Source of the DNA: Ceratodon purpureus
Lineage: Eukaryota > Streptophyta > Bryopsida > Pseudoditrichales > Ditrichaceae
Length of the DNA: 64,000 bases
NCBI GenBank assembly: GCA_014871385.1
Contig: CM026427.1
Span: forward strand, 3,588,366-3,652,365
Direction of reading: 5' to 3'
Below, piece after piece: positions 1,006-45,134 of the stretch (its first letter is position 1; every line of letters starts with the position of its first letter). The notes beneath the pieces were generated by a model. That model was not told where the DNA came from and searched no databases. It saw nothing but the letters and a program-made list of their open reading frames with translations. A program made the translations under genes and the position numbers.

Positions 1006-4000
1006 ATGGCTACCAAAATTTGAGGATTTGTATAACTTGTGTTGTAATATATCATAAAACACCCGAGGTCGATCATGGTGTAGCACAGAGTTGTTGCAAA
1101 TGCGCAATGCTTGAAGTTACATAAGGATGAAGTTGGCTTTATTGTTAAACTTATATTCAGTTATTGATTTTAACTTAGAACTTTAAATTTCAAAATAGCT
1201 CTTTGGAATAATTTATTTATTTAGATGGAATTTGAGTAAAATGATAAAACAAATATAAAATATTCTAAAATGATAATTTGTATGCATTGTATATTGTTAA
1301 AACCATAAATATAAAGAGTAAGTTCAACAAAAGTCTTGTAATTTAATTTACTTATTGTTAATTTCTTAACAATACATATTTGCATGGACATTATTTTTTT
1401 CTATTAATTTTTTTTATTAATATTCAATATATTTGAATTCTATTGATAATTATAATTTTTTTTTTAAATGCCATTTTTGGTTGAAGTGTTTGGAATGTAC
1501 ATGTTCACAAATTTTTTATTGAGAATTTTTTTGTGTTTCACACATTTTATGAATACCTCACTGGTCTAATAATGTTACTCGAACTTAATTGAAATTATAC
1601 CATTCTATGGATAAATTTTTGGATGTAAGGTTTATACTATAAAGAACAATAAAAATGTAGATGAGTTCATTATGGCTTCTTTTTTTATTGTTAGGAATGT
1701 TTAATGCCATTTTGTAGTTTGAAAGGTATGTTAAAATAATATTTAAAATTATAATATGAAACAATAGATTTTTTAGAGTAAAATAAGAATTAGTTCTTCC
1801 TTGATTTAAATATTTGAGGTGTGCATCTTAGCTAATTATAATATATTGTATTTTAATAACACACTTCATATTAAGTAAACAACATTTGATTCAATGTTAT
1901 TAGGTCAATCAAAGCGTCTATGAGTGTATCCATGTATTCTTATGATTCATTTATCAATTTTTGATATGCAGTCAACATTTGTACAAAGTCAATCATCAAC
2001 AAAAATGTTCCATTAATATGGTTTTTCCTTTTTAATGAACGATGCACAAATTTATTGCAATATACAAAGATTAAGATCCATATATGTTGATTTTAATGCA
2101 CCTTGTTTCATGATGTCTACTAAATATTTAGCAACATTATTTGATGTTATAAACTTATGGATAAAATTCGAAGGTCATGGTCATGGTCATGGTGAAATAT
2201 CTTCTAGGGTTCAATAACATAATTTGTGTAATTTTTGATTTGACGATACAAAAAGTGTTTATTTAAAATATAATTAAATTTTGGAATGAAAGAAAATAAT
2301 CACGACACTAGTATTGTAAAAATAAATAAAAAATAGAACAAAGTTGATGTTATGAAACATATATTTTGTATAATTATTGAATTTTTTGTAACGTAGTATA
2401 TAGAAAATAGAAAAGTTATAAGGAAAGTTACAAACGACTTCTATGTCTTTATTATGCTATGGAAAACTCCCGCTTAATTTTATACATAATTAAATTGTTG
2501 ACTATAGATGGATGCAAAAGCTATAAAACATCTTTGATATAGTTCTTGATGACCTTAGATGAATCTATAAAGAAACATAGAAAATATATTTAACTAAAAA
2601 TATCTAACTATTAAAAACAATTCATATATAAAATATCACGTTATTTTTACAATCAAAAGATGATAATTATTAGATTGGAATTGATTATAGTATATGAAAC
2701 ATTTTAGTCATTTGAAATGTCTATTAACAAATCATCTCAATTCATCATTTAGGAAGCAAAATTGGAATGGATATCACTTTTACTCCCTTACATTTTTAAA
2801 AGATGAAAATAACAATTTAGTCAAAGTTTAATTTCTAGAAGACAATTGTCCATACAATTAATAGTTTTGATTTTGAGCAAGTTCTTACAATGTAAATTTC
2901 AAGTATGGTTTTTATAAACTCTTGTAATATGTGACGGTATTAAAATTATTATTCTCATTGGATTATAAGAAAAAAAAACTGATGTTTATCTAGATCATTT
3001 TCTTCAATTTGGACAACTTGAAAATTGGCTCATTCTTCTATTACTTTTGAGATCTTTTTGTAAAAGACACTACTAAATTTATCTCTGAAATTATCAAAAA
3101 AACAAAACCGTTCTAGAATAGATCAAAATTCACTCAAAAATCATCAAAATTCTGTAAAACAACAAAGACTTTGAAAAACAATTGTCAAAAATATACATTT
3201 TGTCGTATCTTTTTATATTATAAATGTATTGAATACATAGAATAAAAATAATTTTGTTAACGCAAATTTCTATAATTTTTTATTTTTTATTTATTTTTTA
3301 ATGATATTATTACATCTAGTGTATAAGAATTTTTTTTATATATTTTAAAAATATCTTTATATTGAGGTAGAAATACCATAAACCAAAAATGATCAATAAT
3401 AGCTAAAAACTATTTTTGAAAGAAATTAGTGTTAACCACTTGATTCATTGTATCTACTTTATTTTTGATTGAATGATAGAATGAATTTAGAATTAACACT
3501 AATATTGGATCTATTCCTAAACGACCATTGTCCATGGATGAGCATTTTGAAATTTTGAGCATGCTTCCATGATGTCAATTTTGAATATGATTGTTTGAAA
3601 AAATTTGTGGATATAAAGAACTGCGAGAGCTTTACCGGAATATTTTTTTGAACGTAGACTTGTAAGTAAAAAAGGTCATGCTCCTCTAAGTCATTTTTCT
3701 TTGAAAAGGACAACTCCAAATTTTTTGCTACATCCTTTCTTCATTATTGAGGTTCTTTAATACAAGTAACTTTGAAAATTACCTTTGAGATTGTGAAAAA
3801 TCAAACTCTCTACAGTGGAAAAATTTCACTCTAAAAATCTTCAAATATTCACCACATTCTTTTTTGAAACATACTTGGAGCATTATCATTCATCAATTTA
3901 AACAACAATGAAAATTTTCATTAATTTCATCCACACTAGTTGAAACCAACATACTATTCTGGTCTATTGTTTACATTAACTTTGCTACTATAACTTCTTT

Positions 4001-6018: not shown

Positions 6019-7154
6019 GGGCCGGTTTAGACTACGGTGGAGAAGTCCACCGGTCATGAAAAAAAGGGCATTTGTGAAATGTGATTGGCCGAAAATGCAA
6101 CTCTACACCGGAAGGTGTTTACACTAGGTGAAGACAAGAATGGTGGTGAAGTTTTCTCATGGATGATAAAATGACATGGCCGCCTACATGGCAGCACTTT
6201 TTGGACTTGGGCTTCTCCAGAGGAGGAGTTTCTTGTCCGGCCTCAAGAGGTTGGAGAAGAAACTCCACCTCCGGAGAAGCCCAAGTTAATAAAAAATCAT
6301 TTTTCAAAACAAATTGTAGCCATAGATTCAACCATCGAGATTTGAACCATGAACCTTGTGGTTGCCAAATTAAGCCTCTTTGGCTTATGGTCCACCTCCA
6401 CCTTTTACTTGTGTACTCTTCTTCTTAAAATTAGATATATACACTTCTCACTCTAGCTCTACATGCTATAATTTGTTTTTCAAAGCCATTTTAAAGGCTT
6501 AGAGTTTATTTTTTGGGCTTTTTATCATGCTGTAATTTTTTTTACAAAGCCATTTTGAAGGCTTAGAGTTTATTTTTTGGGCTTTTTATCATGTTTTTTA
6601 AGACATGAGCATGTAGGGTACCAATGGTATTTTTGTTATTGATTAGGTGTTGATATATGGGCCAAAGTTGACAATTGGCAATTTGGTAATTTTAATTATT
6701 TTTTTGACTAAAATTGAATATTATATTACCATGAGATATTTTTCAATTATGAAAAGTGAAAATCAACCAAAAAATTATTATTCTTCCGCATAATTTGATA
6801 ACAAATAATTTTGAAGTTTAGTCAAATTGTCATACATATGCATATTCATTTTTTATGAAAACAATTCTTGTTTAAATTTTTTGTTACAATGTGAATGTAG
6901 AGAATTGTGATTTTTATCAAAAAAAAACTTCACAATTTGGTGAGTTTCTCTTCACCGGTACACTTCTCCGGTGGACTTGTCCGTTAAGCTTCTCCTCTAG
7001 GTGTTTAGACTACAACCGGTCAAGACTCCTTTTGAAATATTTTATTGCCTTAAATTCTTCTCCGTCACATCCACCATTTGCCTCATATAACCATGTCTTG
7101 GCCAAGCATTCTTGACCGACCAGAGGCCTTCTCCACCGTAGTGTAAACCGGCCC
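6019..7154. mobile_element. Non-autonomous PIF/Harbinger-like DNA element with TTA target duplication
   Basis: The ends are inverted copies. The left begins GGGCCGGTTTAGACTACGG and the right, reverse complemented, begins GGGCCGGTTTACACTACGG; 26 of 27 bases agree. TTA flanks both ends (6016-6018 and 7155-7157). The second copy of repeat B shows the uninterrupted sequence at this site, which supports the insertion and the 3-base duplication. TTA duplication with a GGG/CCC terminus is usual for PIF/Harbinger. No transposase was seen in 1136 bases. Confidence 0.7.
6205..6286. repeat. Inverted repeat (hairpin) inside the Harbinger-like element
   Basis: Arms of about 30 bases, beginning ACTTGGGCTTCTCC and ending GGAGAAGCCCAAGT, flank a loop of about 22 bases. 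The arms differ at a few positions. It may be a nested foldback insertion or an internal structural repeat. Confidence 0.6.
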
Positions 7155-12938: not shown

Positions 12939-15900
12939 ATGGGGAGGGTGAAGTTGGAGATCAAGAAGATTGAGAATCCTACCAACAGGCAGGTGACGTA
13001 CTCCAAGAGACGCAATGGGCTTATCAAGAAGGCCTATGAGTTGTCAGTGCTGTGTGATATCGACGTCGCCCTCATCATGTTCTCGCCTTCGGGGAAACTC
13101 ACTCAGTACAGCAATTGCAGGTGTGGTTCTAGCTCGATGTGCTTGAGAGTGGCGCGTGTTGTTGCATATCGTAATGTTTCAGATAGATTGTCAACTGCTC
13201 AAGAGTACTTCCAGCAACGTAGATCTCGAGCATTCAACCTAAGGAAGTTGAACTATTAAAGTTCATCTTAGGTTACGGGAAACCTTTCGTCCACCAGGAA
13301 TGTAGCAACGTATCATTTGCAGTTTTCGCAATTTCAGTTAATTGCAGATCTTAACGTTACTTTGTGTCGTAACGGATACCCCATGCAGTATTGAAGACGT
13401 CATCTCTCGGTTCGCGAATTTGCCGATGCATGAGCGGAACAAAAGGTCTGTAATCGCAACTTCGCAAGCTTCCCCCGCCTCGTAATGTTTACTCATCGTT
13501 GATTGTTGGTTTGCTTCAGGTCTAGCAAGCTCACTTCATGAATGATTTTCTCTGTGTGGATGAACAGTTTTGAGGATATGCTTACGCGCTTCGCCAATTT
13601 TCACATGATTCATGATCGCACCAAGTATACTAGGTTCGTAGGCATTCTTCCTCTACGTTTTCCATCTAATTGAGCTTGATGACATCACAATGTGTACGCT
13701 CAGTTATAGTTATCTAATGGTTTGGGAGTAGTAGCACGTCTAATCTGATTGAGTGTGTACTGTCCCGCATGTGCAATTACGGACGTCATTGCAGGAAAAT
13801 CGAAAATCTGGAGGTCAGCCTCCATTCCGATTAATCTTCGTTTCAACGTTCATTGTAAAACCTTCCAACACTGACAGTGCCGGAGCTCACTAAGATAAAT
13901 TTGGGTTGTAGGGCTCTGGATTAGTAGGAACTTGGAATGACAGGCTTTGTGGTGATGTAAATGCAGTATTTGCACAAGTCCCTGAAGAAGTTGAATGGAG
14001 AGAGGGATCTTGCATCAAATCATCAACTTCTTTCAGGAAGGTTAGTGACCGTTTTCACTCAAGAAGTTGACATACGGAGTACTGTAACAGTGTTGATGTT
14101 CCCGAGCGATTCTTAGGTTTGTTGTAGGCAATTCGTTAGTACACATGATCATGAAATTTGTGGACTTGCTAATCGAGTTAGAGGTTTGTTGCATGTTTTC
14201 CGCACTGGGATGACAACAGCAAGAGTTACGAAGTTGGGGTACGTTCCATATGTCAGTGAATTTCAGGCTTAATCACTGCTGTTTTCTGCTGCGTACATCT
14301 CGGTTCCATTGATTTCTTCATATGCTTAATATGCTTTCGGGACCAGAGATGATATGATTAATGCTTGTCCTTCGAAATTTTCAAGCTGTCCATAATTTTT
14401 CCGAATCACATCTGATAATGTATGCTAGAAGCTGGTGTAGCTGATCAGTTTAGCTATGTTGTGAACAGTTACTACAAGAGGAGCTGAAAAAATCCCAACA
14501 GGAAAAAGAACTAGTACAACAGAGAGCTCGCTTGTATCTGGCGGATGAGCAACTTCTACATAGCATTGCTTCAGTTCAACAACTGTCCAATATGGAAACC
14601 GAGTTGGAGCAGGCACTCGAGCGAGTGCGTGCAAGGAAGGTGTGTTGTCGGTATCCTGAATTTATAACAAAGTTGAATTCCTCCTTACAATGTCAATACT
14701 GATTGTTCTTTTTGTGGTGGGGTTACCTCCATGCAGGCTTACGTGAGTAGTGCATACCAGGCTGCCAGTGCAGTGCAAAGACAGGTGCACTTTATTTGAT
14801 TGATATTTCACATGTTCGGAAATTCTGCTACGGCGTCCCATTGTACTAGCAAGTCAAATACATGGCACTCTAGTGTTGCCGCCGTCCTAACTTGAGAACC
14901 TGTTTCTTGTGCAGCAACATGAGTTTCTGGGCAACAGTTATCAACAGGTATAATTTATCCTGGGAGTGCACTCCTCTTGATGTTGGTCAGTCTAGATTAA
15001 CCTGGTGTTATTCTAAACATTTGTACACATTCTTGGACATGTTGATTATTTGCCTACTATTCCTCGGAAGGTTTTACTAGGCCTAATACTGTATACATGT
15101 AATATTCTGCGTCGTGCACAGATGATGGCATTACGTCAACAACAGCATTTACAGCAGCACCAACATCAGCAACATCAGCAACAGCAGCAGCAGCAGATGC
15201 AACAGCAGCAACAGCACCAGGGTAGTATGGCTGCAACGCAACAGCCATCCTTGCAGTGGAATATGCCTGAGCGGGCCGAAGCAACCCTTCAGGACTTTAT
15301 GGAATCGAACCCAAGTCAGGCAATCGTGCCTGCACAGATGACAAGGTTTGTAACTGGTGTATTCGTTAATATAGTTGAGCAAACATAGGCCTGCCTAAAT
15401 TCAATTGCTAATCGTCTTCCAGAATCATATATAGTGACTTAAACCTAGTTGATTGCAATGTTGGGCAGGGAAGTTGAAAGCAACAATGAAGCTGCAAGTC
15501 CTTCTGGTTTCTTCCTAGGCGCAGCATCGCAGGCCAATCTACATAATCTGGGTCAGATAGGCCAGCTTGTAGGTGCAAACCGCGGATTATCGATCCACGA
15601 GATGGGTTTGGAACAGCCTGGTGGTCAGTATGATGAGTCTCAGAAGAAGGCTAAACTTGAGGTGAATATGGGGTTTGCATCGTCAAGCAGCAGTGGAGCC
15701 GGTGCAGAAGAAACCGCGGAAACCTTCACCAACCAATCCGAACAAGGACATGGCAGCACCAGTGCTTCTAATTGGCACCAGGCCCACCATCATGCTCAGG
15801 CATACGCAAATTCTCAGTATTCAAATGGATTCTTCAATCAGGTAGTGTGACTGATCGTCTGCAATATGATCTGAATTATTGATCTAGAGTTCCATGTCTT

Positions 15901-16033
15901 GTTATCTGCGGCTTATGAGGTTACTGTAGGGCTCCCCACACAGTCTCGTAAATCCGAATATCAGTGGTTCAATTTTCGTGGTGAGCAGATCTCAATCTAG
16001 TATTGTTGGCAGAGTGCAGATGCGTGGAAATGA
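12939..16033 (+). CDS. MIKC*-type MADS-box transcription factor, gene 1 (428 aa, 12 exons)
   Basis: Exons: 12939-13120, 13389-13445, 13568-13633, 13795-13813, 13967-14040, 14220-14238, 14469-14639, 14737-14784, 14915-14947, 15122-15345, 15469-15841, 16013-16033. All phases join and total 1287 nt. Residues 1-60 are the MADS DNA-binding domain ([39 protein letters not shown]). The I region is split over several tiny exons, the known MIKC* hallmark. A K-like coiled coil follows ([20 protein letters not shown]), then a Gln-rich stretch and a Ser-rich tail ending in SADAWK. MIKC* factors act as nuclear dimers on CArG-type sites and in bryophytes are tied to gametophyte development; this is family knowledge. 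Exon 3 looks like a duplicate of exon 2. The exon at 14915-14947 ([11 protein letters not shown]) has no counterpart in gene 2. If the last intron is retained, the protein ends VV-stop at 15848-15850. Confidence 0.88.
13568..13633 (+). other. Duplicated I-region exon in MIKC* gene 1
   Basis: The 66-nt exon encodes [20 protein letters not shown] after a split Ser codon. The preceding 57-nt exon encodes [18 protein letters not shown]. Both are phase 2 to phase 2 and share the E-D-x-x-x-R-F-A-N-x-x-M-x pattern. Splice sites are GAACAG at the start and TACTAG|GTTCG at the end. Gene 2 has only the first of the pair. The two could be used together or as alternatives without breaking the frame. Confidence 0.65.
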
Positions 16034-17378
16034 TGCACATCGATAAATGACAGTAATGACGTTAGAGAGGTAGGCGCAAGCGTGGGAATTTCTGGAGGTC
16101 GATCTGATGAGCACAAATTAATGCTCTTATCGCTGGAGATTATTCGAAAAGCAATAGATACACCCCCGAGGAGTGAGGGTAATTTGACGAGGTTGGGATT
16201 ACAGCAGCTGTTCCGAAGGGTTAGTCAGTCCATGCCAAAGAGCCCACCGAAGAGCCTGGTTGATCAACTGCAAGGAGCGTCGGAGTACCTAAGGTAAAGT
16301 AGAGCTTCCAGGTTGGATGACCTTTGGGAATGATCGGAAATCAGTTTAGCACTAGGTTGAGGTACAAAGATAGTGTAAATGGTGACATTGCAGGTTCAAG
16401 ATGATGGTCAGTTAATCTCAGTAAGGAATGGGTTTGAAAATTTTGGTTGAGGGAGATCACCGAGTAGGCAGGAATCAGGATGGTGCCATAGCCTCGTTAA
16501 ATAGTAACTTGGATCTGTCTTTCGTCTGGCAATTGAAGATTGAACCCGACGTATAATAGTACCTCAGGATGTGTTGAAAGTTGGTGGTGCTGCCTCGGGA
16601 TGCAACCTTTCAACACATCCTCAACATGTATTGAAAGTTGGAGTGCATGCAACTAGATGCAACCTTTGTCTTGATGCTTCCGGGCTGGGAGTGTAGAGTT
16701 GTAGTAGTACTCCACTTGTACTGAGGAGACACTTGTATTGTAAAGGAGCTTTCAATTGAAATGTGACGTGGGCATCATCCATTATGACGACCTTCCTAGA
16801 TGTGCATGTCACATTTATGTTGGACATGTTATGACGTCTTTTGTTGGTTATTATATATCAAATATAATATCATTACAGTGCCAGACTATTCTCAGCTGGC
16901 TTTGAGGAATTCGAACAGCATTTACTGTGATGTCATTCATGTACGAATGACACACTGAACAGCACCATATTGCTTCTGTGATTCAAAGTTGAGATCACAT
17001 ACCGCAAAGTCTGTTCTTATGTTCACCACCTGTTGAAGGTTATCCCACCCGAGCATCGGTAATGAAGGTTGTGATGCAATACCATCTCTTTTCATCTACA
17101 GGAGAGTTCGTTACCGAAATATGTCCATTTGAAAACACAAAAGGAGTTTCCTAGGGAACTGTGTTCAAAGAGAATGTCAGCGTATATGCTTATTTTGCAA
17201 CGCCGAATCATTGCTGGAGATTCAAAAAATATTGATGAGCCCTATCTTTTGAGTGCCGGATTGGAAGACGTAAAGGCACCGGCAGAGATAATGGGTGAAG
17301 ACGGACCAACTTTTGACGCCCAGTGGCAACGTGTCTGAGACAAACAACGTTAAGTGCATGAAGTAAGTGGCGGCCCAC
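14711..17378 (+). repeat. Segmental duplication, parent copy A (MIKC* gene 1 exons 8-12 plus 3' flank)
   Basis: From TTTGTGGTGGGGTTACCTCC onward this block matches 22672-25321 almost base for base, including introns and 3' flank. It begins inside the intron before exon 8 and ends near the AAGTGCATGAAG segment. Copy A lacks about 217 bases present in copy B (around 24974-25191). Short imperfect repeats ending in GTGCC bound that segment in B, which suggests a deletion in A. Confidence 0.92.
16567..16620. repeat. Perfect-looking hairpin in the 3' flank of MIKC* gene 1
   Basis: GGATGTGTTGAAAGTTG pairs with CAACCTTTCAACACATCC across a 19-base loop; one G bulges. The hairpin is kept in copy B at 24306-24359. 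It may be a small foldback element or a transcript 3' structure. Confidence 0.55.
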
Positions 17379-19445
17379 ATTAATGTGCAATCCTTATGGG
17401 ATATGTGTATCTTGAGTTGAATGTGTGATCGTTTGAGATTTGGAGTGTGTGTGTAGGATGTCCGACTGGCAATTGGGTATTGGGTTCTAATTGGTTTTGT
17501 GGTGTTCCAGGTGCTGAAGGATTTGGGGCGCTGCGTGACTCTGCATGATATCAGTAACGTGGAGGGAGGTTCTGTGTTTCCCGGCGATGGTGCGCCTCAC
17601 TTTACGGTTCATTTCGGTCTTGAAACTTACGGTGTGTCGGCTCCGGTGCACAACTGAGAGCTTCGTAGAATAAATTACTTGGCAGTGGGGTTTAGGGTTT
17701 AAGGGTCAGGGGGTAGGGTTTAAGAAGAAGTGAAGTGTTTGTTTTGAGTTGCAGGCTGGTGCTTGTTTCAACTTGAAAACGTTAGTGTGAAGCTCAGTGC
17801 TGCAAAGCAAAGAAGGGATTGATTTTGTACAACAATTTCGTCTTTTGAAATTCGTCGATTTTTAGCCCCTGAATTGCTAATGTAATCTTGACGATGTTGA
17901 TCGAAATTTTATCTTGCTTGGCTTTCGATTGAAAATTTAGTTGGCACGCTGCTTTAACAGGTGAACTTTCGGTTGGTGATGTTTCGCCCTTTCGTTGGCG
18001 AGGTGTTGATAGCGAAATTGAAAAGATGTGACAAAGCAGGCCTCTACTGTACGTGGTCTCTCTTCCTTATATTCTGTTCGTAATAACTTGACTTGTGAAT
18101 ACTGTTGTGTGTAAGGTGAGTTTTGGTTGTTGTGTGGCAGCTCTATTATAGCACTTTTGCCGCCTTTGTTGCTTACTGGACCCTTTCCAAAACGACTGTG
18201 CAGTATCACTCGGTAGTTTTTTTGAGGACAGACACATTCCTGAGCATCTCCTGCAACAACCTTCAGTATTGTACAGTCTCGTACCCCTGCATTTTGAATT
18301 TAGCGTGTATCCATTCGACGTCCTGGATATGTGGGATTTAGAAAAAGGATTGTGTAGTTATCTAGGTACACTATTGACATATTTCAAACATTTTGCTCGG
18401 TAGATGCAATAATTGCATTTATGGCAAGTAGTTAACCGCTGTAATGTAAGAAGTAAAATTACCACTAGCTAGTTACTTTGCACATACGGTGTAGAGTACC
18501 AAGCGCTGATCATTCGACATCACCTGCCTGTTCAAATTCAGCACCAGCTTGTGTTTCCCATCATGATACGAAGGCTTGAAGCTTCCCACCTTGTGACAAA
18601 GGAGTACTACAAAGAACAGTACCCATGGTTCTGATTATGTGTGTGAGTGTTCTGTAGCTTGAGAGCAGAACAAGTAGCACCTCTGTAGTCTGACAGAGAA
18701 CGTATGTAAGTCCTTGTACAGGACTGTAAGGATGTCGATCCTGTTTCCAGTAATGCAATAGAGGCTTTAAGCAAAGTATTGTGTGATTTTCATTTGTGTT
18801 GGTAGTGTTTACCAAGTGTCATCTTGGTTGTTGTTTGCGTGTATTTTAGTTACCTTTAATATGTAACACGATTAGATGTCGTGCTAGGTAGATACTGATA
18901 TGTTTATGGACCTTGAGGAAGATGTGAGTTGCTCTCTACCGTATCATTTTTGTCTCTTTGAGATCATGAGTATGAGAAGCCGTGTTGGATGTCAGCTATA
19001 CCTTTATACTTTGATACTCATATGAGCCCACTTCGTCCTGGAATTGCTTGCAGGTTCGATTTCGAGTAGTACAAGTGAAGTATCCTCTAATTCCTCTCGA
19101 GCAAGAAAAAGCTGCGAGGCCTTTTGCTCCCATGACTGTCACGGTGTGCAATTCCGTTTCATCCTATGCCCTTTCTGCTAATGATACTGGTTTTGCGCTG
19201 CAGAGTTCTAAATTATCCCGCTGTTGTTTTAAACTTTCTAGACGTGTATTCTTGAATTGGACCTTCTGTTATCTATTTAGAACAAGCAAAATTTACCCCA
19301 AATTTGCAGACTTCATCTTCATGGCTCTGGTTTCTTGTGTTGTGTTTGACGTTTAAAATACAATTTTCCATGTTATGTCAATTAGCAAAAGTGTCTTGTT
19401 GTGAACTTGTGACATTGACAACTCTGTGCAGCGGGGATCCTTTCA
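17379..19445 (+). promoter_or_regulatory. 5' region of the EDM2-like gene, upstream exons unresolved
   Basis: A cluster of TAGGGTTT pieces at about 17688-17730 (telo-box-like) suggests a promoter or leader. Two stretches could be coding exons. 17511-17655 is open after TTCCAG. 19054-19140 is open after TTGCAG and reads RFRVVQVKYPLIPLEQEKAA. EDM2 proteins carry about 200 residues before their PHD region, so N-terminal exons are expected here. I could not join them in phase to 19446. Confidence 0.4.
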
Positions 19446-22400
19446 ATGACTTTTTGTGACCGCCTACGCAAGCAGCGCTCATTGATAGAACAGTATATTG
19501 ATTTAGATCTTGCCTTGAGAGAGGCCGATGAACGAAAGACTTTATTGTCTCTTTCTCGAGAGAAAGCAACTGGGAAGCGGGTGTTACTGCTCAACGATGG
19601 CAGCTCAGATGAAGACGATTATCCACCGGTGAAGAAGCCCAAAATGGATCACACAAGGTCAGAAGATGTGAGCATGCGTGAGTATGAGAGCGAAGAAGAG
19701 TTTTACGAAGATGAAGGGATGAGCGATGAAGGCGTTGAATCTGAAGATGAACTAGGGGATTCATTGTGTATTTTGTGTGATGATGGGGGTTATTTGCTTT
19801 GCTGTGATGGTCCATGTATGCGATCGTTTCATCCCCGTCGAATTGACGGCACCAATTCCCAGTGCGCGACCCTTGGCTTCCCAGACAAAGCGGATATGGA
19901 GGTATTTTATTTTATTTTTAAATTTTATTTGAAGCAAATGAACGGAATTCTTTGCACGGGGATTGTGTTTCATTTAAGCATCTTGGTTGTGCAGAATGTC
20001 AGGAGAGGTTGGTTTTGCACAAACTGCAAGACTAAAAAGCACCAATGCTACGTTTGTGAGGGGCTTGGTAGTTCTGATGCGGCTCTTGGACGAAAAAGAG
20101 AAGTTTTTGTATGCGATGTTGCATCTTGTGGTAAGTTTTTTCATCCTAGGTGTATTGCAAGCAAACTCAAGCCTGGTTCGGATGAAAGAGAAGCAAGGGA
20201 GGCATTAGCAAAGGACATTCGAGCTGGGGAGTCCTTCACTTGCCCACTGCACAGGTGTAAAAAGTGTGGAAAAGGTGAAGAAAAGAAGGAGAGGGACCTC
20301 AACCTTGCTACATGCAGACGGTGTCCAGCAGCCTGGCATGTAAAATGCCTGCCAAGGTGTATTTCAGCTCTTCCACCTTGACGGCTCCAATGAATGCGTT
20401 GGATAGTTTGTCACTCAGGTATGCAGCTGGTGCTTTTCATTTAATATATATCTCTGCATGTCGCATTATCCAGAACCTTGAGTTTTGGTGGCGATGAGGA
20501 GTCGCACTTCGAAGTTCGAGCTTGGTTACTTGATAAGCTGTTCATTGTTTACTGCACGTGAGTGGGCCTTTTCTTCCCTTCACTTGTAATATGATGTAAA
20601 TCTCACTTTCACAATTTGCATTTCCCGTTCATTTAATGTCTCCTTCTCTTTTCCCAGATTTTGTTGGGACGGTTCTGACGGTTTTCTTACTTTGCTCTAT
20701 TTGCAGAGATCATAAACTCTTGCCAGATCTAGGCACTCCAGCACGAAATCACATTAAGTTCAAGGAAAATAGCTCTGATTCAACGACAACCTTTAAAAAA
20801 CCTCAAAAGAAAGTCAGCACTGTAGGGCACGAACGACCTGACTTTAGGACCAAAGTATCTTCTTCTTCAGTATCGCAGATGCCATGTAGGGGTACAGACA
20901 CGGCAAGACTTGCGACTCAGGAACTGTCCGTAGAAGCTTACAAGAGGTATATTTAGTATTCCCTCTTTCTCAGCTCTTTTCGACTCGTGATTAAAGTAGT
21001 GCTTCGAGCGTGCTCTAACTTACAAATTGGTATTTTCCTTTTGCGGTGCAGGCTTGTTCGTGACATTGTTGGTAAGTCGCATCGAGCGATTACAGAAGAA
21101 TCTGTGAAGGCAAAACTTACCCTTCCTACAATTTATTCGCGGAGGGAATCCAATTGGATGCCGCAAGGAAGGTTTAATTCAATTTTGAACGGTGCAAGGG
21201 CTGCTATGGAGTGGTTGAAGCAAGGTGTCAATTGGGAAGATGCAAAGCTGAAATGTGCTCGAGATCAAGTTTTTGCTATTCATGCAGAAGAGGTAAACTC
21301 AACTGCCTTTTACCTGCATCAAGCTGTACATTTTACACTCGGTTTCATCATTAAGTTCCCGAGATATAAATTTCATCGTTTGTCTAGCTATGATACTTAA
21401 ATCTTGTCGTTTTGATATTTTTCAGAGTCATTTGAGAACTTTCCTCGCTCCGACCTTACATGGGAAGCGCTACACATCTTATGGGCGGCATTTCACAAAA
21501 GTTGAGAAGCTCAAAAAGGTATGAATGATTTACTCAAAAAGGTGACCACTTTTTATTAAGCCAGTCAATGTTTGCACAAACATCTCACATTGAAGGTTAC
21601 CTTCTGGCTGTGCAGGTGGTGGAAGTTCTTGAACCTCACATTCGGGATGGAGATACAGTATGAACTCTATCCTTCTCTCTTTCACTTTCAGTGCGCATTT
21701 CCAAATGTTTGCACTAATGAATCCCCAGTGTTTTTAAACGTGTTTATTGATGTCTCAGATTGTGGATTTTAGCTGCGGAGATAATACTTTTGCCCGGCTG
21801 CTGCTCGACGCACTCTCAAATTCTGAGAAGTCTAAGTGCCAGTTCAAGAATTTTGATATCTTTACACCAAAGGATACCTTCGGATTTGAGCGGAGGGACT
21901 GGTTAAGCGTTCGTGTAAATGAATGTGGACCTGGTGACAATTTGGTGATAGGGTTGAACCCTCCATTCATGTATACAGACGTGTTCATTAACCACGCTCT
22001 GAGCATGAATCCGAGAGTGCTTGTTTTCATTATTCCCCCACTGAAGAAACCATTACCACATTATGGTTTTGAATGTGTATTGGATGATCCGACGACTATG
22101 GCTGAAAAGTCATTCTATCTGCCCGGCAGCGTGCATGGCTTAAATGACGATCATATGGAGCAAGGCAACCACGTGGCTCCGCACCTCTATATTTTTGTGC
22201 GAGCTGCAACTTTTGGGGGGTCGAATTCGCTTTCAACAGTGAGTCCGCCCTGGATGGTGAATTCGTCTTTGTCAACAAATCCTAGCCAGCAACTCCATAA
22301 GAGTGAGAAGCGTGTGAATCCTGCAACGCCCACACCCGAATCAGATCCCACAGCAAACCTTTTCATTCGAGGGAAGAGATCATGGGATCCAAGACGGCCT

Positions 22401-23772
22401 CAACACATGGTGCCAAAGATAATGTCTGGAGCGCCGGGTTTCGGATCACATACGGAAGAGGCCGTAATTCTGCCTCCGCCTCCACCTGTTACTCCATATT
22501 TACCTCCGCCTCCGCCTCCGCCCCCACCTCCATTTCGATACTCGCAGGTTCATGACAGTCCTCGTGATCACCTTCCCCCTCATTTTCGTCCGCAACACCA
22601 CCCTGAACTCCGTCCTCCTCACCCTCTGGACGAGCCTTACTCTCCCTTCGAGCCGGCTCTGTTTCCTTCTATTTGTGGTGGGGTTACCTCCATGCAGGCT
22701 TACGTGAGTAGTGCATACCAGGCTGCCAGTGCAGTGCAAAGACAGGTGCATTTTATTTGATTGATATTTCACATGTCCGGAAATTCTGCTACGGCGTCCC
22801 ATTGTACTAGCAAGTCAAATACATGGCACTCTAGTGTTGCCGCCGTCCTAACTTGAGAACCTGTTTCTTGTGCAGCAACATGAGTTTCTGGGCAACAGTT
22901 ATCAACAGGTATAATTTATCCTGGGAGTGCACTCCTCTTCATGTTGGTCAGTCTAGATTAACCTGGTGTTATTCTAAACATTTGTACACATTCTTAAACA
23001 TGTTGATTATTTGCCTACTATTCCTCGGAAGGTTTTAGGCCTAATACTGTATACATCTAATATTCTGCGTCGTGTACAGATGATGGCATTACGTCAACAG
23101 CAGCATTTACAACAGCACCAACATCAGCAACATCAGCAACAGCAGCAGCAGCAGATGCAACAGCAGCAACAGCACCAGGGTAGTATGGGTGGAACGCAAC
23201 AGCCATCCTTGCAGTGGAATATGCCTGAGCGGGCGGAAGCAACCCTTCAGGACTTTATGGAATCGAACCCTAGTCAGGCAATCGTGCCTGCACAGATGAC
23301 AAGGTTTGTAGTGTATTCGTTGATATGGTTGAGCAAACATAGGCCTACCTAAATTCAATTGCTAATCGTCTTCCAGAATGATAGTGACTTAAACCTAGTT
23401 GATTGCAATGTTGGGCAGGGAAGTTGAAAGCAACAATGAAGCAAGTCCTTCTGGTTTAACCGCGGAAACGTTCACCAACCAGTCCGAACAAGCACATGGC
23501 AGCACCAGTGCTTCTAATTGGCATCAGGCCCACCATCATGCTCAGGCATACGCAAATTCTCAGTATTCAAATGGATTCTTCAATCAGGTAGTGTGACTGA
23601 TCGTCTGCAATATGATCTGAATTATTGATCTAGAGTTCCATGTCTTGTTATCTGCGGCTTATGAGGTTACTGTAGCCCCACTAGTGCTCCTAAATCCGAA
23701 TATCAGTTGAATTTTCATGCTGAGCAGATCTCAATCTAGTATTGGTGGCAGAGTGCAGATGCGTGGAAATGA
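19446..23772 (+). CDS. EDM2: EDM2-like PHD-finger/methyltransferase-fold protein, reading on into copied MIKC* exons
   Basis: Exons: 19446(or earlier)-19901, 19995-20356, 20474-20557, 20707-20946, 21052-21292, 21426-21518, 21616-21657, 21759-22745, then copied MADS exons 22876-22908, 23080-23303, 23419-23587, 23752-23772; 2952 nt in phase, 983 aa plus missing N-terminus. The protein begins DRLRKQRSLIEQYIDLDLAL, then an acidic stretch and EDM2-type atypical PHD fingers (SLCILCDDGGYLLCCDG; HQCYVCEGLGSSD; CPLHRCKKCGKG; ATCRRCPAAWHVKCLPR). After a linker comes the EDM2 methyltransferase-like region (LHGKRYTSYGRHFTKVEKL; IVDFSCGDNTFARLLL; GLNPPF; FYLPGSV) and a proline-rich stretch. In Arabidopsis, EDM2 controls heterochromatin-associated polyadenylation and an R gene; that role is family knowledge only. 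From about codon ICGGVT the frame is former MADS intron, then MADS K/C-terminal sequence ([16 protein letters not shown] onward). Without splicing at 22745 it stops at 22758-22760. Confidence 0.8.
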
Positions 23773-25321
23773 TGCACATCGATAAATGGCACCGATGTTA
23801 GAGAGGGAGGCTCAAGCGTGGGGATTTCTGGAGGTCGATCTGATCAGCACAAATGCTCTTATCGCTGGAGATTATTCGAAAAGCAATAGATACACCCCCG
23901 AGGAGTGAGGGTTTGACGAGGTTGGAATGACAGCAGCTGTTCCGAAGGGTTAGTCAGTCCATGCCTAACCGGCCTTGAGGACGTGCAGACCGAAGAGCCT
24001 GGTTGAACTGCAAGGAGCGTCGGAGTACCTAAGGTAAAGTAGAGCTTCCAGGTTGGATGACTTTTGGGAATGATCGGAAATGAGTTTAGCACTAGGTTGA
24101 GGTACAAATATAGTGTAAATGGTGACGTTGGTCACTTAATCTCAACCGGTAAGGAATGGGTTTGAAAATTTTGGTTCAGGGAGATCACCGAGTAGCCAGC
24201 CAGGAATCAGGATATATGGTGCCATAGCCTCGTTAAACAGTAACTTGGATCTGTCTTTCTTCTGGCAATTGAAGATTGAACCCGACGTATAATAGTACCT
24301 CAGCGGGATGTGTTGAAAGTTGGTGCTGCTGCCTCGGGATGCAACCTTTCAACACATCCTCAACATGTATTGAAAGTTGGAGTGCATGCAACTAGATGCA
24401 ACCTTGGTCTTGATGCTTCTGGGGCTGGGAGTGTGGAGTTGTAGTAGTACTCCACTTGTACTGAGGATACACTTGTATTGTGAAGGAGCTTTCAGTTGAA
24501 ATGTGACGTGGGTATCATCCATTTTGACGACCTTTTGAGTTGGCATGTCACATTTATGATGTGTTATGACGTTTTTGTTGGTTATATATCAAATATAATA
24601 TCATTACAGTGCCAGACTATTCTCTGGCTTTGAGGTATTCGATCACCATTGACTGTGATGTCATTCATGTACGAATGACACACTCAACAGCACCATCTTG
24701 CTTCTGTGATTCAAAGTTGAGATCACACACCGCAAAGCCTGTTCTTATGTTCACCACCTGTTGATGGTTATCCTACTCGAGCATCGGTAATGAAGGTTGT
24801 GATGCAATGCTGTTTTCATCTACAGGAGAATTCGTTGCCGGAACATGCCCATTTGAAAACATAAAAGGAGTTTCCTAGGGAACTGTGTTCAAAGGGAATG
24901 TCAGCGTACATGCTTATTTTGCAACGAAATCATTGCTGGAGACGATTTAAAAAATATTGATGAGCCCTATCTTTTTGTGTGCCACCTGAGTTCTAACTTA
25001 TATGAAAGACGAGGCGTTTACCACCAGAGGATTTGTAGTAAATAATAGTGCCATGTTGTCATTGTACTCAGGGGAGGAAAAGGGTCAAGAAATGGAATTA
25101 AGAGCTGCCAATGTTGACAACAATACAGACAAGGAGGGTTGCTTCCCCAACATCCTTTTACCTGGTCTCGCGAGGAACGAGGGCGGAACGTTGAGTGCCG
25201 GAAAGAGAAGACGTAAAGGCACTGGCAGAGGCACTGGGTCAAGACGGACCAACACTTGACGCCCAGTGGCAACGCGACTAAGACAAACTGCGTTAAGTGC
25301 ATGGAGCAAGAGGCGGTCCAC
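22672..25321 (+). repeat. Segmental duplication, copy B, joined to the EDM2-like gene
   Basis: This is a direct copy of 14711-17378. The left breakpoint falls inside the EDM2-like coding exon, so nine codons (ICGGVTSMQ) come from a former MADS intron. The copied exons keep their splice sites. The Ser-rich exon has lost 204 nt compared with copy A, an in-frame deletion of 68 codons. Upstream MADS exons (MADS, I and most of K) are absent, so alone it would be a 5'-truncated pseudogene. Confidence 0.92.
24306..24359. repeat. Hairpin, copy B
   Basis: This is the counterpart of 16567-16620: GGATGTGTTGAAAGTTG pairs with CAACCTTTCAACACATCC. The stem is unchanged although the loop differs from copy A. 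Confidence 0.5.
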
Positions 25322-27099
25322 TTTCGTCCTTTATTCTCACCCTGGCTACTGTACAAACCAACTCATCCATTCCATCCGACCGCCAGCCAGCCCATCGTAA
25401 TGCCATTTGAATAATGCACAGATTCGTTAAATATCAGAAAATCAACGCTCCATCCAGGATGTCTTTTGCTGTTGCCGTTCATTGCCGAAGGTGAAGCGGT
25501 TGCATAAAGAATTCAGTTTTCCATCAACATGGTAACGGAAATTGAATTATCCTATGTTTGACAAAGTCACAGGATTGTTTTTCGTTTTGGATACAAATGG
25601 GATCTTGCTGAGACCGGCTGTGATGCAACAAACTTTGAACTGTCATCGGCATAAAATCACCGAGTAAGATTTCCTTCTTCACCGTCGGCATTGGATTAGT
25701 AAATCTGGAACTACCGATACCTTTTCGAACGCATTATTCATTAGCCAATTGACAAATATACATTGCAATACGTGAATATCCCTGCAAGAAGGTGAAATTA
25801 AGAAATCAGTTACGCAGTTCCAAAAACACACTGTGTTCGAAGGTGTAACTCCTTGACGTGGTTAATAATTTAATAGCTGATCAAGCGGCCGTGCTCTTTT
25901 TTCCTACAGAATGTCGTTCCATGTCATGAGCATTTGTAGCTGCAGAAATGGAAGCCAGGCAGTGCAGGACGCATGCCCGGGATGAGAATAGAAACTATTA
26001 GGAATTACGGCTCCAGGGCTCGCCCACTAGCCCCATGATGTCACCTTGCGCACTCGCATCCGCCCTACGCGGCCCCGGAATAGTCTTTCACCAGCCTCTG
26101 ACACTGTCCCACAGCAACACGTAGACCCGCAAATCCTCCGGGAGGTGCGAGGACGGGTGAAAAATATAATGGTAGAAAATGGGGAGTAGAGACTGAACTG
26201 GTGTGAAATCATCCAATTTTCACCGGCTGCCACCAGTTTCCGGACCTGATTTCGATGCATGGGAGTGAAACCGTGAAAATGCCTTGTTGATCGAAGGCGA
26301 CAAAAGGCAGAAGGAACACCTGCAAGTTGGATCACCCGCCGGAAGGGGAAGCAGTGTGGACTCATCGCTACCGGCTAGACTGCGATGCAACGCTATCTTT
26401 GGATTCGGAGCCAGCCGCGACGGGTTGGCTGCCAGGTCCCACCACCAATTGGCGAGCAAGGAGCTCCAAGCTGCGCTTGCGCTCGCCCTGGGCGACGCAG
26501 CCTGGATGGCAGGGGCAGGAAGGGCAGGGCAGCAGGATGCGAGGATGCGCTAAGTTACATGATGCCAGCCCCGTCTCGCCATCCCAGTCCCCCGGCCACG
26601 CGTAGTATCACGTCCTCCATTCCCTCCCTCCACCCCTTGGGCTAAGTTAGCATCCCAGTCAGTTTACTCCACCTGCCCACCTTCACAGGCTCGTCCGTTC
26701 ACGTCATTCAATCCATTTCGTGTGCAGCCTTCTCAGCTCCGTGCAGATTCCTGGAATGGATCTTGCCCTGCAAGGTGCCCCTCGGAAGCATCATGATTCC
26801 ACCGGTTTTACTCTAGCTCCGACTGAACCCTGCGACGGCACCTGCGACAGTAACCATGAGCCGATAATATGCTGCTCACGGCGCCCAATGTTCCAGTGAT
26901 CGCTGGTTACTGACGTTCAGGAGGTTCATCGCTAGCTCTACAAGTTTCGTAATCTGGCTCCGAGGTCAAGGTTTGGAGTGCAGGAAGTCTAGCTGGGGTC
27001 TACTTTTGTATAGGACGTGGGGAATTGCTTGTTAATTGTGAGTGGATTGTACTAGAGAGATTGGTTTGGAATTGCTGGAGTGGTAGAGGATTTGTAGAG
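25322..27099 (+). promoter_or_regulatory. Upstream region of MIKC* gene 2, no gene supported
   Basis: The tract includes a GC-rich island at about 26220-26640 with overlapping open frames on both strands, none resembling a known protein. A GC-rich island also precedes MIKC* gene 1. The last few hundred bases before 27100 probably hold the leader; no clear TATA box was chosen. Confidence 0.35.
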
Positions 27100-30000
27100 A
27101 TGGGGAGGGTGAAGTTAGAGATTAAGAAGATCGAGAATCCGACCAACAGACAGGTGACGTACTCGAAGCGGCGGAATGGGCTTATTAAGAAGGCGTATGA
27201 GTTGTCAGTGCTGTGCGATATCGACCTTGCCCTTATAATGTTCTCGCCGTCCGGGAAACTCACTCAGTACAGCAATTGCAGGTTCGTTGATGAATCTAAA
27301 TATCGGTTCACTATATAACCTTTGTTGTTTTGGAATTCTTTGTTTCAAGAATGCTGACAGCTTCGAATTATGAAATAGGGAATTGACCTAATGCAGGTTT
27401 GTCTTAGAAAGGATGATTTGAGTTTCGACAATATTTGATCAATTGTTCGGAATCTAGTTTCACTGCATTGAGATGCGGTGCATATCATATATGTCGGGCA
27501 TTCGATTCTTAGAGAACGACGCAACAGTTTCAGACTACCTGGTATTGTATTAAGGACATTCAGAAGTGGTGTGCACTGGACATCTTTAAGATCTGTATTT
27601 GTAGAGTGACCTGCGTTAACCTATTACTTTCGGCTTGGAAAGTTAACATGTTAATTGGTGAGATAACTCAATCCTAACTCGTTCCTGGATGGCAGCATCG
27701 AAGATGTCATTGGTCGATTCGCCAATTTGCCTATGCACGAACGAAACAAAAGGTGTGCAAGTCGTCCAGTGCATTGATTTTTGATTCGATCTTAGTTTTT
27801 CATATGATATAAGATTCGAATTGTAATTGCATTGGTCGTAATGGTCCTACACAGGACACTGCCCTGACTGTCCGAAATTTGAACATTTTTCATAGGTTGT
27901 CAGCCAATTTTCAATATCCTGACAACTTTTTCATCTGCTTGTTTGTGCTTGTGGGACGATAATGGATTACTTTCAGAAAGATTGAAAATCTTGAGGTATG
28001 TTATCAAATTTCTAATACTACAGGATTGCACAGTAAATTCGTTTGGAGTCCTGTAGGTTTAATAACAAGTGCTGCAACGCATTTCAAGTGAGATACGGTC
28101 CCGTAAATCCAACTAGTACTAAACCTGGAAGGCCAAACTTGTGGGGATGTGTGCAGTATCTACACAAGGCCCTAAAGAAACTCGCAGGAGATAAGGAACT
28201 GGTCTCGAATCAGCTCATCTCTGGAAGGTGAGCACCCCAGTTTGTACACTTCTCGAGCCTCAGTTTTGCGAGAAGCATGCCGATCTTTTCTTTTTCGATA
28301 TGAGATGCCGTGATGATGAACAATGGTTAACAATTTGCAAGCTGTGTATAGATCTCTTCTGAATCTGGTTCTCGAGTTGCAAGACAGTTCATGTACTGAC
28401 TTCAGCCATGGCATGTTGTGTTTGCTTCTCGGTCGAGAACAGTAAGAGCTACGAAGTAGGGGTAAGCTGCATTCTCTAGTCATCGAGTTCATGGTTCTCA
28501 ATTTTCTGTTTTTATGACATGGCAGCTCACATTGAACTACACTAAGATTATGAAGAGTAAACTAATGTCTAGTGAACATCCGAGGATTATGTTGGGAAGG
28601 AAGCTGTCGTGTATTTGATTTCTTGGAAAGCAACACGTGATAATTTAGCAAATCAGAATCACTGAATACGTGGTCCTTGCGCAGTTGTTGCAAGAGGAGT
28701 TGAAGAAATCGCAACAAGAGAAAGAGTTGGTTCAACAACGAGCTAGGTACGTGGCCTCAGCAATTAGTTACCATCCCCTTTTCTGTATTTACCGTCATTT
28801 TGTAGTGTAATTTGAATTCAATCTGACACAAGTATGTCCAATGCAGATTGTATTTGGCTGACGAGCAGCTTCTTCAGAGTGTAACGTCTGTTCAACAACT
28901 GGCGAACATGGAGACAGAACTGGAACAGGCAATTGAGCGAGTGCGAGCAAGAAAGGTGATGGGCCACAAAGAATAACCAAGTTGCTAGCACCTTTTTCTG
29001 TGATGTGAACCATCGGAACATGTCAGTCCATCGTGCTTAAATTAACCGGGTATATCTGTACATATTTGCAGGCTTATGTGAACAGTGCTTATCAGGCTGC
29101 TTCAGCAATGCAAAGACAGGTCCCTAACCCTTCAACTCCAACTTCAATTGGTGTTGAATCATGTACAACAGCTACTTAATTAGTTCCTGAAGACAATCAA
29201 TTTATGTACTGTTACTAACCGCCTTGATTTCTTTTGAATGTAGATGTTGGCATTGCGCGCTCAACAGCAACAACAACAGCAACAAGGAGGAATGCCGGGG
29301 GGCCAACCACCCTTCTTGCAATGGAATAATCCTGAGCGTGGCGAAGCAATTCTTCAGGATTTCATGGATCAGCAAGGAAACTCTCAAGCAATTGTGCCAG
29401 TGCAAATGAACAGGTATATACAATCTCTTGAGATGCACTTCACATTTATGTCAAATACTTGCTTCATGTTCAATATTCATGTCCTTGAATGTTTTTGAAA
29501 ATCTTTTGTGCCTGCAGGGAAGTGGCGAGCAATACCGACGCGGGTCCTTCCAGTTTCTTCCCACAGTCAGCTTCACAATCAAACCTACACAGCTTGGCCG
29601 GACAGATGAGCCTAGTGGGAACTAGCAGAGGGTTGAACATCCATGATATGGCCCTGGAGCGCTCTAGTGTTCAGTATGAAGATCAGAAAAAAGCCAAAGG
29701 CGAGGCTAATACTGGCTTCGCTTCTTCAAGCAGCAGTGGCGCTGCTGCTGAAGGGACTGCCGAAACTTTCACTGGCCAATCTGAGCCTGCTCACGGAGGC
29801 GCCAGTGCCTCCAACTGGCAAATTTCACATCAAGCTCATCACCATGCGCAGGCATACTCTACCGCGCAGTACCCTAGTGGGTACTTCAGCCAGGTATGAA
29901 TTGGTATATAATCTAGTTTTAAGTTTTACTTCCTATATCATTGCAAGAGAGATACAATTGGCATCCTTAAGATGTTGAGTGTTTAAATTTTTTTTTATTG

Positions 30001-44912: not shown

Positions 44913-45134
44913 AAGGTTGGATAACTTATCACCACCACGACACCTAAAACCACCAACCTCTAAACAGATCCTACATTCCAGGAGAGAAATGTACGTCATC
45001 GGTACATGACGTAACTGTTTAATAACTAATGCAAAAGTCATGTACCAAGGTCCTACATTTCCTTCCTGAAATGAAAGCCTGGTGTAGAAGTTGGTGGTTT
45101 TAGGTATCGTAGTGGTGATAGGTTATCTAACCTT
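44913..45134. mobile_element. Foldback MITE-like element, 222 bases
   Basis: The first ~46 bases (AAGGTTGGATAACTTATCAC...) are matched by the reverse complement of the last ~46 (AAGGTTAGATAACCTATCAC...) with about five differences. The inner part also contains opposed GTACGTCAT and CATGTACC pieces. The target-site duplication is unclear. No coding capacity. Confidence 0.65.

Follow-up and report, generated by a model that had tools for sequence, protein, structure and literature searches.

An intact EDM2-like/MADS-box fused frame at a composite insert in the moss Ceratodon purpureus

The fused frame and its MADS parent

The window, i.e. the whole 64-kb stretch of Ceratodon purpureus DNA analyzed here, contains an intact MADS gene, MADS1 (12939..16033 (+)), putatively of the MIKC* type, with 12 exons that encode 428 residues in a spliced translation open to SADAWK-stop; the label MIKC*, as opposed to another MIKC type, comes from the first reading of the sequence. 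MADS1 includes a 19-nt micro-exon at 14220-14238, found by eye, and its product matches Pfam SRF-TF (1.8e-26). A second, more diverged MADS gene, MADS2 (27096..29899 (+); exons partly modelled), served as the outgroup. A block of 2.7 kb, made up of the 3' part of the MADS gene and downstream DNA, is present on either side of an insert: the first copy (14706..17381 (+)) holds every MADS1 exon from 14737 onward together with 3' flank, and the second (22667..25324 (+)) is a diverged copy of it. The two are 99% identical in the first 300 nt, with identity dropping to about 85% in the last 134; across five segments they differ by 2.4–14.3%.

Spliced translation reveals a chimeric frame in which EDM2-like exons run, in frame, into the copied 3' part of this adjacent MADS gene. 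The frame is intact; it would encode 983 residues from the ATG at 19446 to the stop at 23770-23772, as read from the assembled sequence. The EDM2-like coding part, 19446..22745 (+), comprises exons 19432-19901 (containing the ATG), 19995-20356, 20474-20557, 20707-20946, 21052-21292, 21426-21518, 21616-21657 and 21759-22745, the last being a single open exon that crosses the junction, with seven further EDM2-like exons upstream of it carrying the frame back to the ATG. Within this fused exon, 31 nt of former MADS intron are read before the first MADS-derived exon (22698-22745), and exons 22876-22908, 23080-23303, 23419-23587 and 23752-23772, all (+), follow with GT/AG sites and phase preserved to SADAWK-stop. 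Both the in-frame fusion and the conservation of the later copied exons had been proposed in an earlier note, and both are borne out. All splice dinucleotides across the fusion are GT/AG, and no stop interrupts the EDM2-like exons. The exon start at 19432 carries one extra base relative to the EDM2-like locus L009, at a position upstream of the ATG.

What exactly has been transplanted from the MADS gene? The tail corresponds to MADS1 residues 197-428, mostly its Q-rich C-terminal region, with one 67-residue deletion that leaves 164 of the 232 residues. The earlier note had described a 204-nt loss in one copied exon; the loss is indeed in frame, but comparison with two paralogues resolves it into a 201-nt deletion in the copy and 3 nt gained by the original MADS gene. 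The description of the tail as a K/C-terminal region and dimerization surface is doubtful, as exon 14469-14639 (57 codons), which by eye resembles the coiled-coil stretch of the K region, was not copied. The Pfam K-box model matches neither the fusion nor intact MADS1 and is thus uninformative, and the SRF-TF match of MADS1 has no counterpart in the Pfam search of the fusion. With MIKC-type MADS proteins (PMC5915566) the fusion shares this tail; because it lacks the MADS domain, the I region and the 57-codon exon taken to be the main part of the K region, it does not qualify as a MADS protein.

The composite insert, its sources and its joints

Between the block copies lies a 5.3-kb composite insert (17382-22666) that consists of a dispersed-repeat piece, a fragment of an RPC25 (RNA polymerase III subunit) gene and a fragment of an EDM2-like gene. 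The repeat piece (17382..17434 (+), about 52 bp) has matches in at least 16 other places. Of six matches compared, five have 0.65–1.2 kb in common around the piece and the sixth (L018) about 0.1 kb, and this shared surrounding sequence argues that the piece is not a transposon end. The RPC25 fragment (17433..19371 (+)) has its source at C11:9490118-9491732 and begins in intron 1 and ends in the last intron; with exons read by eye, the first and last exons are missing. The C11 gene, spliced by hand, matches PF08292 (1.7e-28) and PF03876 (1.1e-12). A deletion of about 90 bp removed the start and acceptor of one internal exon of the fragment, and a later, mobile-element-like insertion (18447..18862, strand unassigned) sits within it, flanked by a 5-bp target duplication, TGTAA, seen by eye. 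This element has a 91% match at C3:7286428 and an 80% match at C11:14033136. No Rfam family was matched in 10000-32000 at gathering thresholds, and testing for the deamination expected of silenced DNA produced no clear signal.

The EDM2-like fragment (19371..22669 (+)) is closest, among the matches listed, to C2:5621724-5625618 (94–95%). It is cut at both ends, without the native 5' exons and C-terminal tail; the C2 relative retains both, with a tail of ~100 residues ending in ASGGWLPAE-stop, and L009 and L012 have the native N-terminal exons and C-terminal end. The genome holds at least eight other EDM2-like loci, and the matches at the eight other places returned all begin at 19370-19371, with none extending past 22669. 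The C11 (1.6 kb) and C2 (3.9 kb) sources are collinear with the insert and end at the same joints as the remoter EDM2 paralogues. One intron (20357-20473) is nearer the C3 copy than the C2 copy (16 versus 37 differences of 117), and the donor may therefore have been a sister gene to the C2 copy. All seven EDM2 introns within the fragment are kept, which rules out a retrocopy. The earlier note was thus right that the native EDM2 tail is gone from this locus, but the 5' exons are lost as well and the other loci remain; its picture of a resident EDM2 gene struck by a MADS copy is better reversed, with truncated EDM2 and RPC25 fragments inserted downstream of a MADS gene whose 3' part was duplicated.

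Pfam recognizes PHD_NSD (2.1e-17) and PHDvar_NSD (2.6e-6) domains in the fusion product. The EDM2-like part contains DFSCG and NPPF, which we take to be motifs of EDM2's methyltransferase-like region; that region has no Pfam match. A blastp comparison with an approximate partial sequence of Arabidopsis EDM2 gave 1.3e-64 and 4.8e-54, values only as good as that sequence. Pfam found no domain in the fused exon alone, the native last exon of L009 or the N-terminal part of L009, and the fused exon matched just three PDB sequences, all weakly (E 0.05–0.08). EDM2 and EDM2-like proteins (PMC7529245) likewise have PHD fingers, an acidic stretch, an N6-adenine-methyltransferase-like (ELP) region and a proline-rich C-terminal part; the fusion differs in its added MADS tail and in the absence of both the native N-terminal exons and the conserved C-terminal end.

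The insert and the duplicated block share their edges to within a few bases. The breakpoint, earlier placed at 22672, lies at 22667, with three bases (TTC) of microhomology in an alignment read by eye; microhomology at the four junctions, also by eye, is 2, 2, 1 and 3 bp. How surprising is it that the join is in frame? When all breakpoints of that MADS intron are combined with the three phases, 62 of 288 combinations (22%) read openly into the MADS exon, so being in frame is unremarkable by itself; and the later exons, whose phases and splice sites were carried along as one block, add no independent coincidences.

Constraint or drift

Has selection kept the fusion as a functional new gene, in which an EDM2-like chromatin reader carries a transplanted tail that is Q-rich and possibly activating? 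We consider this rather unlikely; the evidence on selection is mixed. In its favor, the frame and the 11 introns of the fusion are free of lesions, whereas the insert's RPC25 part has suffered both a deletion and an element insertion, and in simulations of neutral decay everything stays intact in 0.2–1.8% of runs under four rate settings, a post hoc figure for a case chosen because its frame is open. (Stop and splice terms alone, multiplied by hand, give roughly a 1–12% chance of remaining intact.) Coding change on the fusion-locus branch is slower than intron change (P=0.028), the intron rate omitting two of the seven EDM2 introns (20357-20473 and 21293-21425), where L009 is replaced or enlarged. 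Additionally, young fusion genes in rice are often expressed (more than 44%; PMC9199173).

The codon counts, whose polarity we infer, weigh the other way. On the fusion-locus branch, the EDM2 part has accumulated 26 nonsynonymous and 8 synonymous changes, which fits the neutral expectation of 78% nonsynonymous (P=0.51), whereas the branch to the C2 relative shows 17 and 12 (P=0.017 for too few nonsynonymous). These counts use 797 of 808 codons, with codons gapped at the fusion locus or L009 excluded and one ambiguous coding site set aside; polarizing by the C3 copy alone gives 27:8 for the fusion locus and 16:13 for C2, with two ambiguous. Nonsynonymous changes fall within the PHD and methyltransferase-like regions in 9 of 26 cases at the fusion locus and in 0 of 17 at C2 (P=0.007), yet 9 of 26 is also below the 59% expected (P=0.009). 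Furthermore, the native 5' exons are gone, and splicing of the upstream RPC25 exon to EDM2, worked out by hand, would not preserve the frame. The earlier view that chance preservation is unlikely is only weakly supported, with the simulation for it and the neutral ratio and domain changes against it.

Four observations were counted against the label "drifting": the lesion-free frame and introns; the slower coding change; the changes polarized to the copy in the MADS tail, 1 nonsynonymous to 2–6 synonymous, with one of 11 differing codons, at the deletion edge, uncounted; and the contrast in ratio between the fusion-locus and C2 branches, which is not significant (P=0.18).

Origin of the locus and what it may mean

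The explanation that we favor, and regard as reasonably probable from these comparisons, is that a composite insert and its flanking MADS duplication arose in one event and left a young chimeric gene, either weakly constrained or drifting already. A single accident of repair or replication would have placed three pieces downstream of MADS1 (about 52 bp of dispersed repeat, about 1.5 kb from an RPC25 gene and 3.3 kb from an EDM2-like gene), doubling the 2.7-kb target block (3' MADS exons and downstream DNA) on both sides and leaving MADS1 whole on the left. On the right, the broken last EDM2 exon would by chance have come into frame, through the 31 nt of MADS intron, with the copied MADS exons. 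The duplicated flanks reach the insert edges, the joints are microhomologous and the filler is templated, and from these features of template-switch insertion we infer the mechanism: one event of template switching with microhomology. Unless gene conversion or unequal mutation rates intervened, a single event is expected to give similar divergence across parts. Divergence is uneven (five EDM2 introns 5.1%, MADS introns 3.6%, far MADS flank 8.7%, RPC25 8–13%), and the joining may therefore have taken two steps or drawn on another RPC25 source.

A tandem duplication of the whole of 14706-22666, followed by loss of the second EDM2 copy, would account for the second MADS copy beginning exactly at the expected end of the first unit (spacing 7961), but we think it improbable: similarity between the copies stops at 17381/25324, the start of the foreign insert, such that a later deletion must have struck the same point; a genome search with 23600-26400 returned the MADS block only, and 17382-22666 has no match to the right of 25324 in the self-comparison of the whole window. 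Slightly less probable still is that a Helitron or Pack-type transposon captured the RPC25 and EDM2 fragments and then inserted here. The insert does combine fragments of several loci, and multi-gene fragment capture is described for Helitrons (PMC3288121); however, the insert ends, AATGTGCAATCC and GGCTCTGTTTCC, lack the 5' TC and 3' CTRR given there as Helitron termini, the repeat piece resembles an interior fragment and not a terminus, an RPC25–EDM2 joint is absent elsewhere among the 40 of 63 candidate matches scored, and the flanking duplication would be unexpected. An assembly artefact is very improbable even though the species' data are listed as Illumina plus Hi-C in PMC13120521, because the block copies differ from each other by 2.4–14.3% in segments, and each segment from its source by several percent, so an assembler cannot simply have repeated a sequence, and none of the matches returned is a closer copy of the EDM2 or the MADS pieces.

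The single composite event thus remains our preferred account, and its product is probably a young, weakly constrained chimeric gene. In common with the plant fusion genes of the Oryza survey (PMC9199173), which arose by duplication of parental genes, the locus formed at the DNA level, its parents persist, introns are kept and an unrelated C-terminus is new; the moss case differs in that at least four sources meet at one insert and its donor is truncated at both ends. Rice insertions at double-strand breaks and sites of patch repair (PMC7971508) also involve direct duplication of local DNA, with flanking tandem duplications of up to 4.9 kb; here, 5.3 kb of foreign filler from several contigs separates the duplicates, and joints of 1–3 bp microhomology are nearer to template switching. 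Literature searches, in which an EDM2–MADS fusion was not a subject as such, found no title or abstract opening on this locus.

If transcribed, the locus would yield an N-truncated EDM2-like protein, with PHD fingers and an N6-adenine-methyltransferase-like region, in which the conserved EDM2 C-terminal tail is swapped for a Q-rich MADS tail. That this is a working new chromatin-regulator gene, its tail forming an activation surface on a silencing-linked reader and its frame kept by selection while the rest decayed, is a bolder proposal that we hold tentatively and think rather unlikely. EDM2-like genes have been copied repeatedly around this moss genome, with at least nine loci including the fusion locus. 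Here, a single genome shows the likely parents, the joints and the full frame, making the path from accidental joining to use or decay directly testable; and if the gene is expressed, its product would link a chromatin reader with the tail of a MADS transcription factor.

The fused frame and the sources of the insert

The in-frame fusion claimed by the earlier note holds. One open exon (21759-22745) begins as EDM2-like sequence, crosses 31 nt that used to be MADS intron and continues as MADS exon, and the four exons after 22745 preserve GT/AG sites and phase up to the MADS stop. Counting seven further EDM2-like exons upstream, the full frame comprises 983 amino acids from an ATG at 19446. The last exon in the adjoining upstream fragment of RPC25, an RNA polymerase III subunit gene, is in a phase that (worked out by hand) would run into a stop inside the EDM2 exon; translation of the fusion would therefore need to begin at 19446 or nearby. 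Relative to L009 (C2:5618000-5627999), the locus of the closest EDM2-like relative on contig C2, the window has one extra base at the start (19432) of its first remaining EDM2 exon; this base would disrupt the native EDM2 phase and, because it precedes the ATG, leaves the fused frame untouched.

The chimeric frame is real and open, and it was built by a multi-source insertion. Searches of the whole genome (362 Mb, 151 contigs) with queries 17300-20500 and 20500-22700 resolve the insert, 17382-22666, into pieces from several loci. A dispersed-repeat piece of about 52 bp, found in at least 16 other places (six of which were compared), forms the left end. The RPC25 fragment (17433-19371) comes from the RPC25 gene on C11 (85% and 91% identity) and is interrupted at 18447-18862 by a mobile-element-like insert with the target duplication TGTAA. 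For the EDM2-like fragment (19371-22669), the closest among the matches listed is C2:5621724-5625618 (94-95%); at least seven more EDM2-like loci, on C3, C16, C50, C9 (three) and C2 at 24.9 Mb, are more distant. When four loci were aligned to the window one by one (L009; L012 on C3; L015 on C9; and L016), similarity began at 19370-19371 in all of them and ended at 22669, 22668, 22667 and 22525, respectively. The C2 and C3 copies continue to resemble each other past both joints (L009 2157-7975), and the window is therefore the derived state.

The EDM2 part matches what we take to be a part of Arabidopsis EDM2. This match, the PHD domain matches in the window and the published protein architecture together point to EDM2 identity. 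The architecture is that described in PMC7529245.

Elsewhere in the family, the C2 gene adjoins rearranged DNA on its 5′ side (L009 1-2160, ending at the EDM2 start), which is similar to C2:5705384-5707470 and contains an inversion of 73 bp and a 69-bp stretch that matches C11; EDM2-like genes seem to have been mobile repeatedly through such rearrangements. The copies on C3, C16 and C50 are mutually 98-99.7% alike and the three C9 copies 98-99.8% alike, indicating two recent amplifications; in the C16 copy, a 5′ exon match lies about 17 kb from the remainder. Intron 20357-20473 differs from the C3 copy at 16/117 positions and from the C2 copy at 37/117, which means either that C2 was modified there once the two had diverged or that a sister gene served as the real donor.

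Duplication and mechanism

Segments 14706-17381 and 22667-25324 are copies of one another, and, within a few bases, the insert starts where the left-hand copy of the MADS block ends and ends where the right-hand copy starts. Neighbors at the four joints share 2, 2, 1 and 3 bases (by eye). Joints and flanking copies fit an insertion, through either template switching or break repair, in which the target was duplicated as well; in PMC7971508, rice patch-repair tandem duplications are reported to reach 4.9 kb. No Helitron termini, as defined in PMC3288121, were found at the insert ends, and a retrocopy is ruled out because introns are retained.

About 217 bp (24983-25190) occur only in the right-hand copy, with no other genomic match among those listed for query 23600-26400. 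The window also holds an inverted repeat at 44913-45134 (98 nt, 81% complementary, 26-nt spacer) and two tandem 64-nt units at 6462-6589 (94% alike).

Age and constraint

Non-coding divergence grows outward from the fusion: 28/545 in EDM2 introns, 22/611 in MADS introns, 27/638 in the near flank, 58/663 in the far flank, and 128/1000 and 39/492 in RPC25, where some exon sequence is included. This rise could come from any one of gene conversion with MADS1 (the intact gene left of the insert), slower mutation within a unit that is transcribed, or joining in two steps. C-to-T bias, as a mark of methylated, silenced DNA, gave no clear signal.

How constrained is the frame? Pairwise dN/dS between the EDM2 part and L009 is 0.60 (dS 0.041, dN 0.024). 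Polarizing the changes by the C3 copy and then by one on C9 assigns 26 nonsynonymous and 8 synonymous ones to the window branch, for a dN/dS of about 0.94 and in agreement with the neutral expectation of 78% nonsynonymous (P=0.51). To the C2 branch it assigns 17 and 12 (about 0.41), too few nonsynonymous (P=0.017); the direct contrast between the branches is not significant (P=0.18). Within the PHD and methyltransferase-like regions, their borders placed by eye at motifs, fall 9/26 nonsynonymous changes on the window branch and 0/17 on the C2 branch (P=0.007), and on this sequence comparison the EDM2 part of the window is under apparently relaxed constraint. In the opposite direction, 9/26 is below the 59% expected under a uniform spread (P=0.009). 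Of the residues common to L009, L012, L015 and L016, 6/354 are changed in the window, and matching controls (3 substitutions plus 4 gap positions in 355 for L009; 3/351 for L012) are not clearly separated from it. Also pointing away from relaxed constraint, coding sequence changed more slowly than introns on the window branch (34/2391 versus 15/545, P=0.028), although it did likewise on the C2 branch (29/2391 versus 13/545, P=0.036).

The copied MADS tail carries 1 nonsynonymous and 2-6 synonymous changes (a range from ambiguous sites), the original MADS1 tail 2 nonsynonymous; the whole fusion, at 27:10-14, is not clearly off neutral (P 0.31-0.06). For the 34 substitutions of the EDM2 part, the probability that none created a stop is 0.31. 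That chance preservation is unlikely, as had been proposed for an old copy, gains from neutral simulations of substitutions, splice dinucleotides and indels (four settings, 3000 runs each), in which everything stayed intact in 1.8, 1.2, 0.2 and 0.2% of runs, but loses from the neutral ratio in the EDM2 part. As for the joint, 62/288 breakpoint-phase combinations would be in frame by chance. The weakest input is the indel rate, taken from MADS introns and flanks; the EDM2 introns, 545 bp in all, showed no indel. If the window branch was partly spent in a functional donor before insertion, the simulations exaggerate the case. The chimeric frame is probably young and weakly constrained.

Protein lost and gained

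Two coding parts of the C2 gene are missing in the window: upstream sequence (within L009 2157-3785) and, at the other end, roughly 100 residues of tail that finish with ASGGWLPAE-stop, bearing out the predicted loss of the native C-terminal tail. Gained are MADS1 residues 197-428, less a 67-residue deletion. The 57-codon MADS1 exon 14469-14639, which by eye resembles a K-region coiled coil, lies outside the copied part. PMC5915566 ascribes dimerization to the K domain and a possible activation role to the C-terminal domain; of the transplanted surface suggested earlier, an activation tail is thus possible and a dimerization surface doubtful. Also in MADS1, a 19-nt micro-exon (14220-14238) is by eye conserved in MADS2, the more diverged MADS gene of the window, and in L024, a third paralogue, which (3024-3104) is without the intron separating exons matching 14737-14784 and 14915-14947.

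Fusion genes formed by DNA duplication, of which PMC9199173 reports 310 in four Oryza species, are a known kind to which the window fusion belongs; the chimeric gene is possibly expressed.
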